Assembly (NCBI GenBank): GCA_026874595.1
Contig: CM049310.1
Coordinates: forward strand, 90,155,556-90,219,555
Origin: Sipunculus nudus
Taxonomy: Eukaryota; Annelida; Sipuncula; Golfingiida; Sipunculidae
DNA: 64,000 nt
Direction: 5' to 3'
Under the pieces are notes generated by a model that worked only from the letters and a program-made list of their open reading frames with translations, made no database searches and was not told the DNA's origin. Position 1 is the first letter of the stretch, and each line of letters starts with the position of its first letter. Shown here piece by piece: positions 20,941 to 49,151 of this stretch. A program made the position numbers and the translations under genes.

Positions 20941-20953
20941 GAAGCATTGACAG

Positions 20954-21274
20954 GTGCACCAGCCAAAAAAATATGACAGACACAAGTCACGTGATAGTTT
21001 TGTACCTAATGGTGGGACCATCTGGCCTAATTGTTCATTAATTATAAAGAATGATAATTTGATTCTTAAGTTCAACAAAAAGGCAACTGTAGAAATAAGT
21101 ATTTCGTTGTTCGAACAACTACCCAGCAAAGGCACACAAATGATAAGTAATCATTCAATGGAACTCACTAGGGTAATGTCGATTAAATATAGTTTCGTAA
21201 AGATTCTTAATGCTCGATTAGAAGACAATGGAGTCAACTCATGTACTCCAGGGTTGTCTGACGGTGTAACGTAA
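20954..21274 (+). pseudogene. Ig-like V-type domain exon, copy A (truncated)
   Basis: A 106-residue open stretch contains GGTIWPNCSL (B-strand Cys) and, about 70 residues on, VKILNARLEDNGVNSC, which corresponds to the 'ED.AVYTC' F-strand signature of Ig-like domains. Its partner at 48841-49151 carries the better-preserved PEDTAVYTCTAE. Here the reading ends at TAA (21272-21274) soon after the second Cys, whereas the partner's frame runs 16 codons further to TAA. The initiator Met shown is arbitrary; an exon would start after an upstream acceptor that I cannot place. Such domains occur in secreted or surface recognition proteins. Both copies carry lesions, so I call this a pseudogene fragment; a terminal exon with a shortened tail is the alternative. 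Confidence 0.5.
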
Positions 21275-32610: not shown

Positions 32611-32811
32611 ATGGACGCAGAGGAATTCCGCAAAAGAGGCAAAGAGCTGGTGCATTTCGTTGCGGACTACCGGGAGAACATCAGGGATCGCCGAGTACTT
32701 CCGGAAGTTCAGCCGGGATACTTACGCGGAATGATCCCTGACCACGCCCCAGAAGGACCTGAGCGCTGGGAGGATCTGATGGCGGATATTGATAGGGTCA
32801 TCATGCCGGGG
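32611..32811 (+). CDS. Gene B exon 1
   Basis: 67 codons from ATG to GGG, donor gtacgt. It encodes the N-terminal helix segment ([20 protein letters not shown]) and the [20 protein letters not shown] motif, ending DRVIMPG. Confidence 0.93.
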
Positions 32812-35800
32812 GTACGTCCAAGTCAACAGTAATGATAAACACAACACCATAAACGCCGAACGTGCTTTTTACTCCACACATGTGATCATAGCATTTTTTT
32901 TCGGCAGGTCGCTTTCACCATCATTTCATAAAAATTATATGACGTTTTATTCAAATTTATACATCATTCATATCAAGAGTTTAGTAATTGTTTTTTACAA
33001 AAATAAATAATATACATTTTACAAAAATACATAATATATTTATAAATAATAATGTAATTATAAAAAAAGTGCAATTTGATAACCTTATTACACTTATAAT
33101 TATATGATCAATTACTGTATGTTTTTACTGTTACATGCAAGGAAAGGAAGTTGTGAGATAACCCCTTTTTATCTTTTGAATCCAGAAGCGCTGGGTTCAT
33201 CAGGGGTCATAATTATGTGATTCATCCTTAGTTAACCCATTACAAAATAGGTAAAATATTTTAGTGTAATATATTGGGGACCAGATATCTTTTGATGACC
33301 GAATAGTTAATCAGTTGTCTTTTATAGAAAACAGTGTTAAAATTGTCATATCAATATTTAAATTAAATACTAATATATAATAAAAATACATTCTAGTGTA
33401 TAAATCCCTTAAAAATAATACATATTTATATGTATTTTAACCGTATGTCTATGTTTGCACAACTTTTCTTCCTCCTGCTTTGATGATCACTAATTGACAG
33501 CACCCTCACTTTCACGTCTACTTCCCGGAACTACCGTCTTCTCCCGCCATGTGTGCGGACCTGTTCTCCGGCGCTGTCGGCTGTATCGGCTCCACCTGGG
33601 CATATTGCACTTCTTATCACTCTTCATTTTATTTTATTTTTTTTATCTTTTGCTTTTTATTCAACTACTCCTTTCTGTTTTCAGGTTTCTTATCCCATTC
33701 TTTAACACACTTGCGCACTGTATTTCTTCAAAGGATATAATTCAGCAACAATTAAATTTAGTTTTTAATTACCGGAATAGCAAACGAAAAACGCTTCACT
33801 AAAGTTACGGAGAGTTGTCGCCTTTGACTTAACTGGATTCAATTTCTTGTTTAATGCTGGGACCATATATACTAATTTGCCTAAAAGACATATGATGGGG
33901 TCTACACCCTAGGTCAGAAAATGACAAATGCAGTCTCCTCACTCCACTTTGACCTATCGGACATTCTACTTTATCATACGTGTGTTAATGGGATATTTCA
34001 CTTGAAGTAAAGGAGGGGTGTATATGTGCATGCACATGTAAGGCTACATCTATGGACTATCCTCCAATATATCATTCTAGATAAATTCTGAATCACATAA
34101 GTGACCCCCATAAATCATATTGACTATTTAAATGGAGTATTGAAGAGAACACTATATAAGCGTGTAATTTGTTTACAGCTACACAGGAGCTTAAAGCCTC
34201 TTAAAGCCTCATCAGGTAATTCAGATTTCATAGTAATGTAAGCCACAGTATGGGTGTTTTTTGAGGAAGGCGATTAATCCGTCCAGTTCTTAAACTATTA
34301 AACTACCTTTTCTGTATAATTAATACGTTTCTGACTTAAGCTGTGTTGCCTTGTGCGTTTATATGCGTATATGCGTAGATATCGTTTATATAATTATGTA
34401 ATATTTGTTTTTCCACGTATACGTCAGCATAAATGCGTATACGCGTGTATGCATGAAAATCGCCACAGGAGCAATTTTTATGCACATGTCTGCAAGAAAC
34501 CAGGCATTTTGAGTAAGTGACGTCACTTCAGCATTTTGTTTTTTTTTGTGAAAGGCCCCTTTGATCCACCGTACACATATAAACGTCTGCCAGATAACGC
34601 ATAAACGCATGGATGCATATACGCATAAAGATAGAACAAAGCTTTTTAAACTGTTATAGCGGCTCCGTGAGGGATGGGAATTTGTTGAGCAAGGTGGTCG
34701 ATTGAATATGTGCTGAAGTTTAATTACTTTGGTTCGCCTTACTTGCCGATAGATGGCTTCGTTGAATGAGTTCCAGTTATATTTGCGGGCTTTCCGACAT
34801 AAACAAGTGGATATAAACAAAATGAACAGCTTGTGTGCGGTGGCATTTTCGCATTCTGGTCTAATTCATATAATTGGTTCAAAAGAATATCTAACAGACG
34901 TAAGGTGTTAATAAGCCTCTTTTGTAAAACAACCTATATGCATGAAATAAAAAAAAAATACCTAAACAGTGAAAATTACAGTTCCTGGTCGACTATTAAT
35001 GATAATTCCTTCCGAAAATTGATCTCGTCTTATCCATCTCATGGTTGACTTAGATTTCATTTGGTGCAACTCAGAGGAATCCGATTATTTGTTCAGCCAA
35101 TTGTCCACATTTTTAAGTAAGTTTATTCATTAATTTCAATTTTGTTAGGCGTTATCCAAGTTTCTGATGTTTTTGAAAGTTGTGGGTGAATTTCATAGAC
35201 TTTGCCAGGTAGAGGGTGCCTGTAGGCATACCTGTTGGGCAAGTATGTATATAGATATATAGCTCTTAGGATCCCGCTGGTTTCGTCCTGTAAACATATT
35301 TACTTTATCTGTCTCTCTCATTTTTTTCATCTTTCTAGATTATCTCTACTCCTTCTGGATAACTTCAACTCTTTTCGGAAAACCTCAACTATTTCCGGAT
35401 GAACTTAGCTCTTTCCGCATAACCTCAAAACTTTAAGGATAACCTCAATCCTTCTTTAAGATAACCTCAACTTTTTCTGGATAACCGCATCCCTTTTTGG
35501 AACTCTTAAACTCTCTCTGGGTACCCATAACGCTTTCCAGATTATCTGAATGCTGTATTGATAAGCTTTACTCTCTCCATATAATCTGATCATTTTCAAT
35601 ATATCTGCTCTTTAACTTCTTTTTTCCGAAAAATGTTTCTGGATAATCGCAATTTTTTCCGGATAACCTCGAATCTTTACGAAAAACGTCATCGTTTTTG
35701 GATATTCCCAACTCTTGATAACCTTAAATCTTTCCGGAGAATTTCAACTCTTTCCGGAAAACCTCAATTCTTTTTCGGATATCCTCAAATCTGTTCGGAT

Positions 35801-38800
35801 AAGCCTCATTCTGGATAATCTCAACTGTTTTCGGGTCTCAATTCTTCTTGGTAACCTCAAAACTTTACGAATAACCTCGACCCTTTCCAGATAACCTCAA
35901 CTTTTTCTGGATAACCCAACTCTTTTTTTATACCCTCGACTCTTTCCGGATACCCTTAACGCTTTCCAGATAACCGAAATGCTGTATAGATAAGCTTTAC
36001 TTTTTCCAGATAATCTGAACTGTTTTCCATAATACAGGTCTTGACGATCCTATTTCAGAATATTCTCAACTCTTTCTGAATTACCGCATATACTCAAATA
36101 ATTACTTATAACATCAACTCTTCTAGATATTCTAAACTTTTTCTTGATAATCTCAACTCTTTCCGGATTATTTCAACTCTTTTAGGATAACCTCAATTTT
36201 TTTTCGGATAACCCCAAATATGTTAGGATAACCCTTAATGGATATCTTGAACTCTTTTAGGATCTTTACTCTATTCTAGATAACCTTATTTTTAAACTCT
36301 TCCTGGATTCCCTTAACTCTTTCTTAAGTAGTTCCATTCTTTGCTAATAACCTCAACTTTTTCTGAATACCGTTAACTCTTTCCGGATACCCGAAACATT
36401 TACCTGAATTCCTCAAGTCTATCCGGATCACCTCAACTTTTTGTGGACCCTCTTAAATCTTTCTAGATAAACTGAAGTTTTCCCGGATAACCGCAATTCT
36501 TTCAGGATAACCGCAACGCTTTTCGGGTACACTCTTATCTGCAAACATGAGACATATAAAAAAAAGTTATTTCCAGGTGACTCACTGGCAGAGCCCACAG
36601 TTTCACGCTTACTTTCCGGTACTCACCTCGTATCCAGCGATCTGTGCCGACATACTGTCTACTGGCATTGGCTGTATCGGGTTCTCATGGGTAAGATAAA
36701 GACCATAGGAATTGCTACATCTAACATTGAAAATATTACCATCTTTGCCATGAGGTACAGTTTTCTTTAAATTAAATTTAAAAAATCGTCCTTAGTTGTA
36801 GTACGACCAATAAAAACATTTATTTGACGAAAATTTGCGAAAACCTCTGCCATCTAAAACACTGGATCCTTCCAGATACGTTTCAAAATCCAATCGGATA
36901 AACCAAATATCATGTCCCATCTTTCATATATTTTTGTAGATATTCGTTTTTAACTAACAGTAAGTATTTAACTCATCAGTTAATATATCACATTTAACAT
37001 ATACTCAGGAACTGTATGTGTCTAATGATATATCCCCAAACGAAGATAGCCAGCCCGGCGTGTACTGGACTCGAGGTTGTGATGATGGACTGGCTGGGCA
37101 AGATGTTAAATCTACCGCAGGAGTTCTTGTGGGGAGGCAAAGGAGGTGGAGTCATACAGGTTAGTGCGACAAAGGAGGTAGAGACATAGAGATAAGAGAG
37201 AAAAAGGAGAAAGAGTCATACAGGTCAGTGAGACATAGGCAGTGGATTCATATATGTGAGTGAGTCAAAGGAGGTGGAATCGTACAGGTCTCGGAGACAA
37301 AGGAGACGGAGCCAATCAGGTGAGTGAAACAAAGGAGGTGGAGTTCAAAAGGACAGTAAGACAAAGGGGGTTTACTCTTATAGGTCAGTGAGTCAAAGGA
37401 GGAAGAGTCTTACAGGTCTGTAAGACAAAAAAGTCATACAGGTAAGTCAGACACAGGAGGAAGAGTCATATAGGTAAGTTAGACCAAGGAGGAGGAGTGA
37501 TACAGGACAGTGATACATAAGAGAAGGAGTCTTACAGGTCATCCAGACAAACGTTTGGAGGTTTTTTTTCTAAGGTGGGGTCAATCATTAATAGAGTGAT
37601 GATAACAGGGCATTGTAGATTAGATGGGCGAATGAGGGCTTTACAATGTCCATAAGTGTTGGCGACAAAGTAGGCTTTATAATCCAGATGGGCAAAGTAT
37701 AATATAAAGATCAGTGAGATAATTAATTTGTAATCTCTGGAAGGTAAACGGAAGTAAAATGAGCATTGAAATTAAAATTGTATCAAATTTCTTGTGATTC
37801 TCTATGATATCTTAGATATACGGGCAGATTAAAGATATATATTGAAAATGTATCACCTTGTTGCTGGTTTTCAGATATGATTGAGTAGCTGATTAAATAA
37901 GTAATTTCACTTTAGATATCGCATACTATTAATTCTGCGATTTATTTATAGACTTAAAGTTTTCTGCATTTTTTTTCCCCTAAATGATTAACTATTCTTG
38001 ACTTTTTCTTAAAACGGCACATCCATGAATATCTTCTAGAAATTTTCCTGTTCATAAATGTTCAATCAACGTATCTTTACCATACTCTCTCAACATTTAA
38101 AGGGATCAGCGAGTGAAGTTACACTTGTAACTATGCTGTGTGCCAGAAAACGGGTACTCAGCGAGAAACGGGAAGAACTCAATACGAAAGGAGACTCGGA
38201 AATCATGGGAAAGCTGGTAGCATATTGCTCTGACCAGGTACGTAAAACTGCAAACATACTATTTGAACTATGTAAAATCGGTTGAAATTCTTCTGGGGCA
38301 ACCTTCCGGTCTACTTATAGCCTACAAAACATTCTAAACCTAGGTCATCTTACAGTTGCTGCTTAACTTTGACAAGTTAATATCGCAGCTGATTTTCTGC
38401 TCTGACCAGCTAACATATCAGTCGGTTACCCAAGTATTATGTTTACCGGTAGTCTATTCTCTGACCAGGTAACCTTTCGGGTGGCTTGCTGCTTTGACCG
38501 GGTTTCCATAAAGTAATGTTTGACGACACAACCTTACAGTTGGCGGTCTGATGCATTGCCCACATTAACTTACAGCTGGAGGTCCAATGTTCAGAAGACA
38601 TAACCCTAGAGTTTGAGGTCTAATGCCCTAACGACATTACCCTAGAATAGGAGGTCTTATCCTCGGACGACATACTCGCACAGATGGAGGTCTATATAAT
38701 TGCTCTGACGACATAACCTTACAGCTGGAGGTCTTATGCTCAGACGACTTACCTGAACAGCTCGAGATCTAATGCTCAGATAACACTACCATGGTAAAAA

Positions 38801-41800
38801 TGTATATGTTGGCTTTCTACTGGTCAAATAATTACTCGCTGATAAAAAGATTCTATTAAAAATAATTATAATAGTAATAATAATATTAATAACGGTAATA
38901 ATATAGAAATGTGTATAATTATCTGTAGGCACACTCTTCAGTGGAACGAGCTTGTCTTTTGGCGGCGTTGAAAACCCACAAAGTTGAAAGCGATGAGAAT
39001 TGCTGTATGCGAGGGGACGCTCTGGCTGACGCCATTAATCAGGACAAACAACAAGGACTGATACCTTTTTATGTAGGATTTTTTATTCTTATCTTAACCA
39101 GTTTATTTAAGTTAGTTTTGATTATTTAATAATTTTTGTACTCTAATTCTTACCATCATTACTGTATCCAAAAGAGGCAACTAGCAAAAAAAATATTTTC
39201 AGAAAGCATTATGACATAGGCCTAATAAGACTTTTTAGAAATAATATTAACTTTGACAGGGAAAATTAAAACGGTATATTTAAATATATCAACATATCTT
39301 GCATTTCATTTGAATGTGAATTTCCCGCGTGTTTAAGCCAAATACGTTATGAAATAAATGAATAGTTGCAATATTTTATACATGTATACTATGCACACGA
39401 TTCATCTTTTTTATCATTTAGAAAATTGATGGATTTTGAAGATTATGACATATAAGGTTACGTAAATTTAGCAATATATCAGAGAAGATTATGATTTAAA
39501 TTTGGATTTCTATTTTGCAGGCTGTTGCCACATTAGGTACTACGCCCTCCTGTGCCTTTGATAAACTTCAAGAGATAGGACCTGTCTGTAAGTAAATATC
39601 AATATTGGCTTGTTAATAACGTATGCATTAACTGTGATTTTTTTTTATCAAACCACCTCATGCATTCGTGGACTCAGCCTGTATATATGTGCAAATGAAC
39701 AGTAATCCGGACCAACCTTAGGCCACAACAATAAGAAAATTGTCCTGCACAGTGCGACAGTTCAGAAATTAGATGTTTTCTTAGTGAACACCACAACCTC
39801 TGCAAATGGTCCTGTGTCTCTATCCTACAAAATTACAATATCAAACAGTTCATACTATAATGAAATGCCTGAAATAATAGTATAAAATAGTTAACGACCA
39901 AACATAAGCTGATCAAAGCTAATGTTTGGCCTTACAAGGGATATTTATTTTTATTTTATAATGGCGTTGTTAAGGTTTCAAGTCGCCACCAAGGGCGTTG
40001 CCAAGGGGGGGGGGAGGGGGGGCTGCAGGGGGCCATGAGTAGTACTCACCGTCCTCTCGAAATTTCAATTAGTCAAATAATGTTTAAATGTTTTAAAAAA
40101 GATAAAAAAAATTCCCGTCACTGGTATCCGCAGATTTTGAACTTATTTCAATATAAGGCTTTGCAGCTACCGTTATTAATGTTTTGTTAACTGATAAATC
40201 TGCATTTCCTTAGGTACGATCCTGCAAAGTGATATAACATGATATAAAGTAATAAAACGTGACATATTGCATTTACCAAATATTTCAGCCCCATCCCTCC
40301 CTCAATCCTGGCTCCTTCCCTGGCTCCACCGTTGTTCGTATCAGACATTTCCCCGCAATCAATAAAAACGTAGTGATAATTCCGAAGTGGATAAATGAAT
40401 ATTAAGTGCTATTCGAAAGACAAGAAGGCATGATCCACTGGTATGTTGGCGTTGGTTATCATAGTGCCTGTTTTCCTTACAGGTAATAAAGAAAATGTCT
40501 GGCTACATATAGATGCCTCCTATGCTAGGTCCGCCTTCATATGTCCCGGTTTTGGACCGCTGCTTGATGGTGTGGAGGTACTTAAGTTTTTTATGTTTAC
40601 CAATTAAACTATCACCACTATAGTTGTGAATACACAACTCGATGTTAAGTCAATACATGTATATCATTTCCGATGGAAAGACACCTGTGACGTTAACAAA
40701 TAGTATTCCACCGACATATAGGAAATGTTAAGTGCCAAGTCAAGATCGGTTTTCTAAGTCTACAGATCATTTTTTCCAGGTTCATCAGTCAGGCCAAATG
40801 AAATACTCCATTTCAATATATGCATTTGTTAATAGAAGGAGATAGCTCTTTAAATTAAAATATGTTTTGATATTCATATCTGAGGTGAGTCTTACAATGT
40901 TTTGCAGACAAACATATAGATTTTTTAGATTTAAAAGTGTATTTTGACTTTTTAATAGGTGAATATCATTTTTTTACAATTGTTATCTTCATCTGCCTGG
41001 TTTAATCTCATTAAACCCTTTACCATTTATTTTATTAATTCTGACTTTTGCTTTACAGTTTGCAGATTCTTTCAACTTCAACCCCCACAAATGGATGCTG
41101 GTAAACTTTGATTGTTCGGCCATGTGGTAAGTATGTTTTAGACCGGCTTTTGTGGCTCTGGGATAAACACAGGATTTAAAGCCGGTAGTTCATGGGTTCA
41201 AATCTCAGTCGAGGAGCTTTGAATTTATTTTACGGTTTGTCCCCTTCCTGGGTGAACGCATTGCAGTTAATGGGAAGCCGTGCCCCGCGACAGTGTTTCA
41301 CTTACAAACGCGTGCGTCTTTTATGGCTCCTCGGTGTTATCACCATGCAATTGGGATGGTTACACACCAGGATACAAAATAATATGATAGAAAGCGAGGG
41401 TTACGGTCGTGTCAAGTAGTCCCAAACCGAATTGTAAACTCTGCAGATGTACATACTTAGGGAAAGAATTAGCTACGTCAGCCTTTAAAAAATGGAGGCT
41501 GAAAGAGGACTTCAACCATAAAGATTCTTTAAAAAGTGGGTTTTCTACCTATGCAAAGGGCCGAGTGATTCTAATCCATTTTTATTTTCATATTTTTTAA
41601 CGATTGGTCCATGTAATATTGGTAGAGCTATATACTGAATATGAATAAGGAAAGCCATGCGACAAGATAATATCTTTAATTAACTCTTCATGATGTTAGG
41701 TTTCCACATGGAGGCGACAATTAGAAACTGGGGAGTCATTAAATTATTAGCGCAAGCCTCAGAGGTTCTATTAAGATTTCAGCGGGGTATTTTTTACACC

Positions 41801-44159
41801 ATAATCAAAATCCTACTCCCTCACAGTATAATCCCTGGTATCTCAATAGAAATAAAAAGTAAATGAATTAATATATCGTTTATAATATATTAAAGTGATA
41901 AACATACTCACTAAGGGTTAAGGACACCTCTCAGATTGTGAAAGCCTTCAACGTAGACCCCCTGTTTTTAAAACATGATCAGCAGGCCAACGCCGTGGAT
42001 ATCAGGGTAAGCATGGACGCACTCACAAACACGCGCAAAACAACCAGAAAACATATAAGTGTATACAATGAATTTCTAATTGTTACCACTTCTATAAAGG
42101 ATGTTCGTTTTACTTTTATTTACATGATGGTATCTTAATTGTTTAGTTTAGTTCATAAATCCTTGGATCTCTGGGTATTTAATGGTTCTCATGCAGCTAT
42201 TTCACACTGCAATCGTCCCAGTTCTCTGCAATCATTTGTTTTAACCGTTGCTTGGAGAGCAAGATTCTCTATGTTCGACCAGCAGTTTGAGCACAGAGCA
42301 AAACAAATTGTAATCAGACCAACAAGATCGTTTTTTAATAGGATACAGCTCTAAACATTCAACATGCGACGTCTGCTCTGGTTTGCCTGACTGCACCGGT
42401 TCTGGCACAGGATCATTCAAATTCTTTGCTCTGCCAAACTCTGGAGATGGAACCAGAGAACCTTGCAATAGAAACAGGAGTTTTACGAACGGAGATCTGG
42501 AAAGACTGCAGTAAATGAATGTTTTATCTCCACCATCTATTAATTGGTCCGTCAATTTCTCTTCCAGCACTGGCAGATACCGCTTGGATTTCGTATCCGT
42601 TCACTCAAACTCTGGTTTGTTCTGCGTCTGTACAGAGTGCAGGGATTACGAACACACATCAGAAAGGTAATAAGGCAGGCCTCCCACGCAGGGGGTTCCG
42701 CCTACGAATTTTATAGTTTCCTACACTGCGAAATGCTTTATGTTAATTGGAATTTTCTGAAAGATTTGTGAGCAAACGCAGATTACGACGCAACCTCACG
42801 TCCCCACCATCTAATAATGATGAAACTATTTAGGTTCAAATGAGCCTTTAAATCATATTAAATGAATTTGAGCAATAATGACAAAGACATATATTGGAAT
42901 ACCCAAATATCTTTTTTAGGGATTGTTGCAGGTCTAAAGATTTTAAAATTTAATTCACAATTAACATTAATAAAACGCGATATATCTTGCCTCTGACAAT
43001 TAGCATGCATTCAACAATCATTTTAGCTTAAAATGCATACAAACATCTCGAGGTGTTTCTTTTTCAAGTGTGTATCATCCCTCTCCCTTAAATTTTACAT
43101 TTGACATTTTGACCAATGATTGTTTGATAGAAATGAAGTATAGAAATGAAGTATAACTGCTTCATAATACAAAATATAAAAAGTAGCACATTATTTGTTT
43201 TCAAACGTACAAATGCATGCACAATAAGAAAGCATTATGCCTGTTGATTTATAAGAAATATCCTTCTAAAAATAACACGAGCGCGGTGGCGCCTAGCTGC
43301 CCATTACGATATCGATAGACCAATCATTTTTATTTAATTATACAATGCGTTATTTCTTATTCTGTTTCTTTTTCCTAGCGCCACTTGCACAACAATGCTT
43401 TGTAGCCATCTAAGCCAAATGTTCTTTTTTACGCAATGTGTTGTAATTCTTTTAGCAAACTGCCCTGGCAAAAATATTTGAAGCCCTAGTGAGAGCAGAC
43501 GACAGGTTTGAGGTCACAAATGACGTCATCATGGGATTAGTCTGCTTCAGATTGAAGGTGAGTTGTCATATTTTAATAAAACACCAACTTCCACTGATTA
43601 CCAAGATTCAACATATCCCATTTGCTCAAATCTTGTTCCTTATATTTATATATTTATATGTATATTCCTACTTGACGTTTTGTGGGCTTATATACACATT
43701 AAAATAGATGGATAATTTTTTTTTAATCATGATGTGATGAATCTATTTTATTCCGTGGCCTAATGGTATTTTAATTTTAAACCCCCAGAATCAATCAGTA
43801 TGGCAAATACTCCGTAAGGACTCGATAGTCGCCAACTGTACATGAATGTTTCTTTAATTAGAGAATGTGTATGCATTAAATTTGAACTTTCACTTGCATA
43901 ACTTTTCTAATTTTAACCTCCTCGATCTCAGCAAACGTGAATCTGATTTCAGAATAATTCAAATGGAGTCAATGAGCAGTTACTGAAGAAAATTAATGAA
44001 GACGGCAGGATTCATCTAGTGCCATCTGTTGGGAAAGGCATGTACTACCTGAGATTTGCTGTTTGTTCTGCTGAGACAGAATCAAAAGATATTGAATTTT
44101 CATGGGCTGTAATCAAAGAGTTATCGAACACAGTGCTTGGAGAATCTACAGTTCGTTGA
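32611..44159 (+). CDS. Aromatic-L-amino-acid decarboxylase-like protein, gene B (12 coding exons, 478 aa)
   Basis: This is a PLP-dependent group II decarboxylase of the AADC/DDC family, cytosolic and homodimeric by family rule; human DDC has 480 residues. Exons: 32611-32811, 36577-36690, 37046-37159, 38103-38237, 38929-39072, 39521-39587, 40483-40577, 41059-41126, 41916-42006, 42568-42666, 43456-43557, 43953-44159. All junctions are GT-AG and phases agree. Key residues: H190 in SDQAHSSVER (stacks on PLP), D269 in LHIDASYA (pairs with PLP nitrogen), K301 in FNPHKW (Schiff base). Gly350 in HWQIPLG matches DDC, where HDC and insect Tdc have Ser. Oddities: F330 in DPLFLKH replaces the catalytic-loop Tyr (human Y332); V82 replaces human T82, the catechol contact; the RRFR motif reads FRIR. 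The start has A at -3, G at +4 and an in-frame stop 18 nt upstream. Substrate is therefore uncertain (DOPA, 5-HTP, tyrosine or other), and the product may be an aldehyde rather than an amine. Confidence 0.93.
33489..33599 (+). pseudogene. Dead duplicate of exon 2 inside intron 1
   Basis: Reading ACT AAT TGA CAG CAC CCT and onward gives a copy of exon 2: [17 protein letters not shown] then [16 protein letters not shown], against [17 protein letters not shown] and [16 protein letters not shown]. Three lesions occur at the edges: the conserved Trp codon TGG is TGA, the acceptor AG is TG, and the donor after TGG reads gcatat instead of gtaaga. The 33 codons between remain open. A shifted acceptor (gacag ending at 33500) would skip the TGA, but the donor would still be a poor GC site. 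It looks like a retired mutually exclusive exon or a duplication by-product. Confidence 0.75.
34340..34640. repeat. Imperfect inverted repeat rich in 'atgcgta'
   Basis: 'tgcgtttatatgcgtatatg' near 34354 is matched by the reverse complement of the 'gcataaacgcatggatgcat' to 'acgcataaag' stretch near 34600-34630. A central palindromic 'cgtatacgcg' phrase lies near 34436. It may be a foldback element in intron 1. Confidence 0.35.
35335..36540 (+). repeat. Intron 1 minisatellite, about 21-bp unit
   Basis: More than 50 diverged head-to-tail copies of 'ctttccggataacctcaact' and variants run up to 36 bp before exon 2. Units range from about 18 to 24 bp. The unit resembles 'ctttccggtactcacctc' inside exon 2 (36603-36622 region), which may or may not be its origin. 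Confidence 0.85.
36577..36690 (+). CDS. Gene B exon 2
   Basis: 38 codons, acceptor tttccag, donor gtaaga. It encodes [14 protein letters not shown], the substrate-pocket segment, with Val where human DDC has Thr82, then [11 protein letters not shown] and GIGCIGFSW. Confidence 0.93.
37046..37159 (+). CDS. Gene B exon 3
   Basis: 38 codons, acceptor acgaag, donor gttagt. It encodes [20 protein letters not shown] and ends with the Gly-rich GGKGGGVIQ. Family members usually read ACTELE; here the Glu is Gly. The exon's last ~30 nt seed the repeat array that follows. Confidence 0.92.
37160..37545 (+). repeat. Intron 3 minisatellite, 32-bp unit copied from the exon 3 / donor junction
   Basis: Twelve head-to-tail units (nine of them exactly 32 bp, others 26-33) plus a partial follow exon 3 directly. 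The consensus is 'gtcagtgagacaaaggaggt' then 'ggagtcatacag'. The exon's own end reads 'gcaaaggaggtggagtcatacag' before gttagt. Each unit therefore carries a pseudo exon end plus a donor-like site. Two units read ag/gtaagt (37442 and about 37474), closer to consensus than the real donor. Continuing the frame from exon 3 meets TAG within ten codons. Confidence 0.88.
38103..38237 (+). CDS. Gene B exon 4
   Basis: 45 codons, acceptor tttaaag, donor gtacgt. It encodes [19 protein letters not shown], then the variable loop, and ends KLVAYCSDQ just before the PLP-stacking His. Confidence 0.93.
38330..38800 (+). repeat. Intron 4 minisatellite, about 40-45-bp unit, related to the exon 4 / donor junction
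   Basis: The recurrent phrase is 'ttgctctgac(c/g)a' then 'cataaccttacagctggagg' and 'tctaatgctc'. The exon 4 end reads 'agctggtagcatattgctct' followed by 'gaccag' and gtacgt. Close intronic echoes occur at about 38399 (ctgctctgaccagctaac), 38459 (ctctgaccaggtaac), 38491 (gctttgaccggg) and 38701 (tgctctgacgacataacc). Copies are more diverged than in intron 3. Confidence 0.7.
38929..39072 (+). CDS. Gene B exon 5
   Basis: 48 codons, acceptor ctgtag, donor gtagga. It begins [14 protein letters not shown], whose His190 is the PLP-stacking residue (not the Asn found in insect DHPAA synthases), and ends KQQGLIPFY. Confidence 0.93.
39521..39587 (+). CDS. Gene B exon 6
   Basis: 22 codons plus one base, acceptor ttttgcag, donor gtaagt. 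It encodes [20 protein letters not shown], the ATLGTT PLP-phosphate region; the Cys codon is completed by exon 7. Confidence 0.93.
40005..40033 (+). other. G-run tract, possible G-quadruplex in intron 6
   Basis: A run of about ten G, A, seven G, then 'ctgca' and five G lies on the coding strand within the intron. Confidence 0.5.
40483..40577 (+). CDS. Gene B exon 7
   Basis: Acceptor ccttacag, donor gtactt. It encodes [20 protein letters not shown] with Asp269 pairing to PLP; the family's AYAGSAF reads SYARSAF here. It ends LLDGVE. Confidence 0.93.
41059..41126 (+). CDS. Gene B exon 8
   Basis: 22 codons plus two bases, acceptor tttacag, donor gtaagt. It encodes [20 protein letters not shown] with Lys301 as the PLP Schiff-base lysine. 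Confidence 0.93.
41141..41385 (+). mobile_element. tRNA-derived SINE, copy 2, in intron 8
   Basis: It starts 14 bp after the exon 8 donor. tRNA-like head: 'ttgtggctctgggataaaca' (box A-like) and 'catgggttcaaatctca' (box B). The body has 'gaagccgtgccccgcgaca' and 'gtttcacttacaaacg', matching the reverse complement of 21605-21780 and 49440-49600. It is in the sense orientation relative to the gene. Confidence 0.65.
41916..42006 (+). CDS. Gene B exon 9 (catalytic loop)
   Basis: One base plus 30 codons, acceptor cactaag, donor gtaagc. It encodes [20 protein letters not shown] and ends NAVDIR. This is the mobile loop closing the active site. TTT (Phe330) stands where DDCs have the catalytic Tyr (human Y332; insect DDC reads DPLYLKH). 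Two residues shorter than human in the loop tail. Confidence 0.92.
42568..42666 (+). CDS. Gene B exon 10
   Basis: 33 codons, acceptor cttccag, donor gtaata. It encodes [20 protein letters not shown] and ends LRTHIRK. The usual RRFR is FRIR. Confidence 0.93.
43456..43557 (+). CDS. Gene B exon 11
   Basis: 34 codons, acceptor ctttag, donor gtgagt. It encodes [20 protein letters not shown] and MGLVCFRLK. It is nearly identical to the gene A exon at 514-615. Confidence 0.94.
43953..44159 (+). CDS. Gene B exon 12 (terminal)
   Basis: 68 codons plus TGA (44157-44159), acceptor gatttcag. It encodes [20 protein letters not shown] and [19 protein letters not shown], ending GESTVR. No AATAAA is evident close behind the stop; AATAAA at about 45071 is conserved with copy A (about 2060). 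Confidence 0.93.
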   Translation, partial: NNSNGVNEQLLKKINEDGRIHLVPSVGKGMYYLRFAVCSAETESKDIEFSWAVIKELSNTVLGESTVR

Positions 44160-48105: not shown

Positions 48106-48840
48106 TAACGTTCATGTCTTGCATAAAATTGTTGATGTTTAAAGGCTATAACTCCAATGATTTTAAACGTAAAATTTGCAATGAAACTAAAAATAAGGCA
48201 TACAGAAATGAGTGTTTAACAGTTACAGCTTAAAAACACTGCATTATTTGCATATTATGATATATGCATCTAAATGCAATTTGCTCGGATTAAAAATCAC
48301 CCTTTAATAAAATACTCTTCAACATCCCCGTTAAGAAAAAATTATATTAATGATTTTCTAGCTTGCATATTGAATACTTGCAATTCAGATGGATATTCGT
48401 GACACCCTACCGTAATATATTTTTTTTCTAGACCTTCATGTTATGACTTAAATTTAGACCAAGAATTTTTGTGAGCTTCCCGGAAACGTTCCTATGTTCA
48501 CCTACCATTTCGATTTTATAATAAGACTAGGACTCTTATTTTTATGGTCAGAATACCATGATGTCTTTACAGTCAAAGAAATACAGAAGTGACACGCCTG
48601 AACAAATTTGCTCAATTGTTCACTATTGAAAGTGTTATGTAGTTAGTCATTGTGCAGTTTTGTATAAGTGCTGTTTTTGCCTTGCATGTCATTAATTAGA
48701 ATATGTGACCTTATGTTGTTTCCTTATAACATCTTCAATACATAACTAATTAATGAGCAATGTACCACGCCTAGAGCTTTTCAGCTCAAAACCATCTACA
48801 TGTTGCCCACCTAAAAACCTTAGGGAATATTGTATCTATT

Positions 48841-49151
48841 GGTGGGACCATCTGGCCTAATTGTTCGTTACAAATTAAGAACGATATTTTGATTCTCAAG
48901 TTCAAGAAAAAGACAACTGTAGGGAAAAGTATTTCGTTACTCGAACAACTACCTAGTACAAAGGCAAGTTAGTTATAAGGAATCATTCCATGGAACCAAC
49001 TAGGGTGACGTCGATTCCCTATGGTACCGTAAAGATTCTTAATGCTAGACCAGAAGACACTGCAGTCTACACTTGTACTGCAGAGACATTTGACGGTGTA
49101 CCGTTAACTCAAAATGAAGACATTTCAAGCGTTTATGTTTTGGGTGTGTAA
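48841..49151 (+). pseudogene. Ig-like V-type domain exon, copy B (one frameshift)
   Basis: It reads GGTIWPNCSLQIKNDILIL from 48841, then after a 2-base insertion near 48957 (AGTACAAAGG against AGCAAAGG in copy A) continues in another frame with RVTSIPYGTVKILNARPEDT, AVYTCTAETFDG and a tail ending VYVLGV before TAA 49149-49151. The two Cys and the PEDTAVYTC signature identify an Ig-like domain. The single frameshift breaks it; copy A lacks this frameshift but has a premature stop. An unrecognised intron or assembly error could also explain the shift. Confidence 0.55.

Follow-up and report, generated by a model that had tools for sequence, protein, structure and literature searches.

A clade of AADC-type genes without the catalytic-loop tyrosine in Sipunculus nudus: candidate aromatic acetaldehyde synthases

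The stretch analysed in this work, referred to as the window, consists of 64,000 nucleotides of the Sipunculus nudus genome (1.43 Gb, 153 contigs) and corresponds to C5:90155556-90219555, where C5 is contig CM049310.1. The window contains a gene of the aromatic amino acid decarboxylase (AADC) type, denoted gene D, on the + strand at 32611-44159. Gene D was delimited by tblastn and a splice check. The gene comprises 12 coding exons with AG/GT at all inner borders, and its unbroken coding sequence of 1437 bases encodes 478 residues and a stop. The D protein is identical to the DOPA decarboxylase (DDC) of Drosophila at 301/478 residues and to that of human at 281/478 residues. The PF00282 profile (group II decarboxylases dependent on pyridoxal phosphate (PLP), AADC type) covers D residues 35-410 over positions 1-375 of 375 with an E-value of 5.4e-145. 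D departs from this AADC pattern at the loop tyrosine, which is replaced by Phe330.

All exons of D lie on the + strand. The first coding exon starts with ATG (32811 is its last base, 32611 its first), and exon 3 (36577-36690) encodes Trp71, Tyr79, and Phe80, together with Val at the position of human Thr82. Exon 4 (37046-37159) carries the replacement E113G (replacements are given in human numbers), and exon 5 spans 38103-38237. Exon 6 (38929-39072) encodes His190, which corresponds to human His192 (codon 38932-38934). Exon 7 is located at 39521-39587, and the suspicion that D is a pseudogene lacking this exon was dismissed. Exon 8 (40483-40577) encodes Asp269, which corresponds to human Asp271, and carries G276R, E283G, and R285G. 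The PLP lysine, Lys301 (human Lys303), is encoded by exon 9 (41059-41126), and the catalytic loop DPLFLKH by exon 10 (41916-42006), which is bordered by AG and GT in the correct phase. Exon 11 (42568-42666) carries G370R and is followed by exon 12 (43456-43557) and exon 13 (43953-44159), which ends with the stop TGA. A relic second copy of exon 3 at 33486-33599 (+ strand) has TGA at the Trp71 codon and is without splice borders. The start of the window holds, on the same strand, exon 12 (514-615) of the upstream paralog C, which has Val at the loop position, and exon 13 of C (1016-1183) up to its TAG, 13 codons short of the end of D.

An earlier note on this DNA had proposed that the loop tyrosine of the decarboxylase is Phe, encoded by TTT as F330 at the human Y332 position, with K301, D269, and H190 intact. 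The alignment of the spliced D protein with the human and fly proteins agrees with that proposal, where Phe330 is aligned with Tyr332 of human DDC and with the loop tyrosine of Drosophila DDC, and the three other residues as well as W71 are preserved. The codon is located at 41965-41967, 8 bases away from the place given in the earlier note (41973-41975), which reads ACA across the Lys/His boundary. A base-calling error at this codon is unlikely since the paralogs F (the nearest paralog of D), G, H, and I share the same TTT. The use of a different loop exon had been named as an outcome that would speak against the proposal; a Tyr-bearing alternative was dismissed, as a tblastn of the window with fly and human DDC gave no second loop exon among the matches above 22 bits.

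The PF00282 search of the genome returned 109 exon-level matches, and 13 AADC-type genes (A to M) were read from the fetched stretches. This number is a lower bound, with further matches on C12, C16 (32.1 Mb), and C131 outside the count; the match on C131, a small contig, is a single-frame match of 464 amino acids. Nine of the 13 genes (A to I) are located on C5, the chromosome of the window. A lies at 89.23 Mb, B at 90.07 Mb, C at 90.14-90.16 Mb, E at 90.22-90.24 Mb, F at 90.271-90.283 Mb, G at 90.30-90.31 Mb, H at 90.33-90.34 Mb, and I at 90.37-90.38 Mb. The remaining genes are J (80.64 Mb) and K (80.73 Mb) on C1, and L (61.02-61.04 Mb) and M (61.06-61.07 Mb) on C16. In 11 of the 13 genes the full set of 12 exons was identified, with matching lengths and AG/GT borders, and C was added once its first exon had been located. 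The apparent lack of the first exon in C and E was dismissed, as it was found further upstream. The residue comparison, the synonymous divergence (dS) values, and the protein tree use C and E without the first exon, and the DNA tree includes the first exons. Gene E is without exon 7 and has a deletion in exon 5 with a frame break. The stop lies 13 codons before the end of D in C, six in L, and three in H, and no stop is found inside the compared stretch in A, E, and M.

The loop tyrosine is missing in nine of the 13 genes. The human 332 position is Tyr in A, B, J, and K, Phe in D, F, G, H, and I, Val in C and E, and Ile in L and M. Tyr is encoded here by TAT or TAC, Phe by TTT, Val by GTT, and Ile by ATT, where GTT, ATT, and TAT are each one base away from TTT. 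The human 192 position is Asn in G, H, I, and M, that is, in four of the nine Tyr-less genes, and His in the other nine. Six combinations of the loop residue and residue 192 are therefore present among these related genes (Tyr/His, Phe/His, Val/His, Ile/His, Phe/Asn, and Ile/Asn). Residue 80 is Tyr in G and H and Phe in the remaining 11. Thr82 is retained only in A and B; it is Val, Ile, Ala, Asn, or Glu in the other 11, which are all nine Tyr-less genes and the Tyr-bearing J and K. The PLP lysine, Asp271, Trp71, and Ser149 are preserved in all 13 genes.

The DNA tree was constructed without the trait codons (79-82, 190, and 330). The nine Tyr-less genes form one clade in this tree with support of 94/99, marginally below the tool's star, and the protein tree, which includes human and fly, supports the same clade at 100/99. 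On the DNA tree, Tyr and non-Tyr are separated by a single change, the four loop residues require three changes, and His and Asn require two. Both trees place the loss of the loop tyrosine as a single event, in one clade. A single origin of Asn192 was ruled out, as the tree in which G, H, I, and M were constrained as one clade was rejected (approximately unbiased (AU) test, p = 1.9e-67), and on this topology Asn192 arose twice. Judged from these residues and trees, the plant-type switch (loop Phe) and the insect-type switch (Asn192) are stacked in G, H, and I, and M combines Ile with Asn192.

Constraint was assessed by counting nonsynonymous and synonymous differences per site in 12 gene pairs. 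Significantly fewer nonsynonymous than synonymous differences per site were observed in 11 of the 12 pairs, for example F-G (80/1115 nonsynonymous versus 67/319 synonymous, p = 2.4e-11), G-H (38/1112 versus 24/319, p = 0.0028), and D-F (8/1114 versus 14/320, p = 3.3e-05). The Tyr-less clade is under purifying selection. As seen from the paralog comparison, the Phe in D is not a chance mutation and is inherited within a constrained gene clade.

Gene D itself is probably a failing duplicate of its neighbour F. D has five unique replacements (E113G, G276R, E283G, R285G, and G370R), and all five occur at sites fixed in 11 other paralogs (E omitted), human, and fly. The pooled proportion in the other genes is 31/132 with A and E omitted (p = 0.001) and 16/85 with L and M also omitted (p = 0.0005); in A, the far outgroup, it is 14/57. 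F has the loop Phe but none of these five replacements. When the differences between D and F were assigned to their branches, D acquired seven nonsynonymous and four synonymous changes and F one and four, with six synonymous changes unplaced. E283G and R285G fall at positions of human AADC-deficiency variants, where E283A and R285W exhibit expression of 10-20% in E. coli (PMC8003434; this and the following papers are cited from excerpts). The broken E, a duplicate in the neighbouring pair, is also consistent with decay in this part of the array. We consider it rather probable that D is a decaying duplicate without a useful enzyme, irrespective of what its Phe signifies, and that relevance is confined to its twin F and the rest of the array. 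However, the reading frame and all splice borders of D are intact, the D-F differences are biased overall to synonymous sites, and the sole unique replacement of F also lies at a fixed site (1/1). Since D is probably a failing duplicate of F, the copies most likely to act appear to be F, G, H, and I.

The C-D and E-F pairs resemble one block that is present twice (C5:90.14-90.29 Mb; window positions 1-46000). One copy of each type is damaged, where E is broken and D has the five radical changes. The D and F regions share two long blocks at 97.4% and 96.4% identity (blastn), and the longest block between the C and E regions is 98.4% identical. Either a recent duplication of the block or the presence of two haplotypes would be expected to give such similarity. 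The identities would suit an assembly in which two haplotypes of one region were set in tandem, with D and F as alleles. However, we regard this as unlikely, with dS fourfold apart between the pairs (0.012 for C-E and 0.047 for D-F) and with E having lost an exon that is present in C.

The chemistry that most likely applies to the clade is taken from published mutants of other enzymes. Tyr332 of mammalian DDC has been proposed to protonate the C-alpha once CO2 leaves, and the Y332F mutant produces 3,4-dihydroxyphenylacetaldehyde (DHPAA) and ammonia but no amine (PMC7497351). In plants, the active-site His is kept and the loop residue, Tyr or Phe, separates decarboxylases from acetaldehyde synthases, where the swaps Y348F and F338Y convert the activity in opposite directions (PMC6411801). 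Both statements had been made in the earlier note and accord with these excerpts. In insects, the switch is Asn in place of His192 and not the loop residue (review, PMC6411801). The marks of insect DHPAA synthase (DHPAAS) are Asn192 with Phe79-Tyr80 or Tyr79-Tyr80, and some have Tyr79-Phe80; the triple change of Phe79/Tyr80/Asn192 to decarboxylase residues in the silkworm enzyme reduced the estimated DHPAAS activity from 95% to 5.9% (PMC6494836). By these rules, F (and D, if folded) would be plant-type, and G, H, and I would be plant-type plus insect-type.

We lean slightly towards the explanation that the loop tyrosine was lost once in the Tyr-less clade and that the working members of the clade are aromatic acetaldehyde synthases. 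The proton-relaying tyrosine of the loop would have disappeared through a single TAT-to-TTT change, and the clade would have expanded for the most part as a tandem array. An aromatic amino acid would be bound to PLP at Lys303 and then decarboxylated. The carbanion/quinonoid would be attacked by O2 because it is not promptly protonated once Tyr332 is gone, and the products would be an aromatic acetaldehyde, CO2, NH3, and H2O2.

Two alternatives concern the same residues. The Tyr-less enzymes might still make amines, with His192 as the proton donor and with Phe, Val, or Ile altering only the speed or the substrate. D, F, C, E, and L retain His192, which the review names as the proton donor of DDC (PMC6411801), and the replacement of Thr82, a neighbour of the substrate, in all nine Tyr-less genes points to a shift of substrate. 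This alternative is nevertheless improbable in our view, as the excerpts above report that removing only the loop hydroxyl, with the His kept, is enough to switch the reaction of mammalian DDC and of the plant enzymes, and four of the nine Tyr-less genes have lost His192 too. Less probable again is that the Tyr-less copies are pseudoenzymes with another role, for example pairing with Tyr-bearing AADC subunits. One or two catalytic side chains are lost in these copies, in addition to H302Y in L and R347M in M, but the PLP lysine, Asp271, Trp71, and Ser149, which a non-catalytic role would not need, are all retained.

Several observations weigh against the acetaldehyde synthase explanation. The clade is partly decaying, where L has lost His302, M has lost Arg347, E is broken, and the five replacements of D lie at fixed sites. 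The C-E pair, which includes the broken E, exhibits no constraint signal (p = 0.42). Phe alone may give a poor enzyme because the plant Y348F mutant is 17x slower as an aldehyde synthase than the wild type is as a decarboxylase (PMC11308512). Val and Ile, as read from these genes, are likewise without a hydroxyl, and neither is described in the literature passages used. The clade may differ in substrate, as Thr82, which contacts the catechol hydroxyl of carbidopa in pig DDC (PMC6411801), is replaced in all its members.

The interpretation offered in the earlier note is partly supported and appears to fit the clade better than the window copy D. The idea that D is an aldehyde synthase agrees with its plant-type signature (Phe, His192, Asp271, and Lys303), but D may be a dying duplicate. 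The contrast drawn there between a Phe route and the insect route holds for D, which has Phe with the His kept, but not for its sisters G, H, I, and M, which have Asn192.

The broader reading is that this animal lineage arrived at aromatic acetaldehyde synthases of its own through the plant route, stacked the insect route on it twice independently, and tried Val and Ile at the loop site. Single- and double-switch enzymes would then form a natural series in one genome, next to the four AADC-type genes that bear Tyr. We place this joint reading just short of an even chance. The stronger result is that a single animal genome carries a natural series of residues at the loop and His sites. In this family, the choice between amine and aldehyde is known to depend on two side chains, of which plants use one and insects the other. 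The series offers a natural set with which to study the evolution of the oxidative reaction, any additive effect of the two switches, and the use that an animal makes of aromatic aldehydes and H2O2. Among the titles and abstract beginnings of the open-licence papers listed, no report was found of an animal AADC with a natural loop Phe or with Phe and Asn192 together. No open-licence paper was found on AADC gene expansion in a mollusc or on tandem duplication of DOPA decarboxylase in a bivalve, and one mussel genome paper has DDC only as an abbreviation.

Additional exon copies were observed in several of these genes. Two exon 3 copies, both intact, are present in gene B within C5:90.071-90.074 Mb (L010:1888-2001 and L010:4768-4881) of equal length and phase, both with AG/GT borders, where the substrate pocket reads YFPAL in one and YFPTA in the other. 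The two copies are a candidate mutually exclusive exon pair; among the open-licence papers listed, none has such an exon of DOPA decarboxylase as its subject, judged by title. The upstream copy is broken in at least seven genes, with a stop at Trp71 in D, F, G, J, and K, Trp71Leu in H, and a truncation in L and M. Neither A nor I yielded an upstream copy by blastn, and none was found in those parts of C and E that were searched. A repeat finder run on the two exon 3 stretches as separate regions returned no families, and their relation was revealed by blastn. Exon 4 (MANPACTELEV...) occurs three times in tandem in gene K, within C1:80.738-80.741 Mb (L025:4423, 5509, and 6565). The first copy has Lys in place of Met as well as two further changes, and the third has Ser in place of Pro.

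Other elements were also observed. Distant family members that were partly read at C4:7.496-7.502 Mb (PLYLRH) and C15:59.45 Mb (PLYLQH) keep the loop tyrosine. Ser or Thr precedes their PLP lysine, as in histidine decarboxylase. Three stretches on C14 resemble what are presumably glutamate/cysteine-sulfinate decarboxylases. Open reading frames at 20951-21271 and 48775-49151 of the window share GGTIWPNCSL..KND..ILKF and NHSME.TRV..VKILNAR.ED; by eye, they appear Ig-like, and they form another duplicated element between the AADC copies, and 48957-49148 has no Pfam match. Nine bacterial-type COX1 genes of near-equal score are located on C60, C61, C62, C66, C72, C74, C75, and C89, contigs that include lengths of 2.0 and 2.2 Mb. 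The 80 relatives kept from the named collection are at most 59% identical. Several genomes of a single unusual bacterium seem to be present in the assembly.

Comparing these genes to known systems, D has the same change in the same family as the Y332F mutant of mammalian DDC (PMC7497351), with His192 and the PLP lysine kept in both. However, that enzyme is a laboratory mutant, whereas the change here is natural, inherited, and common to five genes. The plant acetaldehyde synthases AtPAAS and Rr4HPAAS have a loop Phe with the active-site His kept, as in D (PMC6411801, PMC11308512). The bit score of the hand-joined D protein is 590 with fly DDC (3k40) and 390 with the plant chain 6eei, and the best solved relatives of D are fly and mammal DDC and not the plant enzymes, where descent is judged by score alone. 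Compared with the plant enzymes, this genome adds Val and Ile at the loop site, as well as combinations of Asn192 with Phe or Ile. The Asn192 of insect DHPAAS is found in the paralogs G, H, I, and M, and its Tyr79-Tyr80 in G and H (PMC6494836). D differs in having His190 (His192) and no Asn192; its Tyr79-Phe80 form is also found in some insect DHPAAS (PMC6494836). The Drosophila and human DOPA decarboxylases belong to the same family as D over the full length, and D differs from them in its replaced loop tyrosine, its replaced Thr82, and five further changes.

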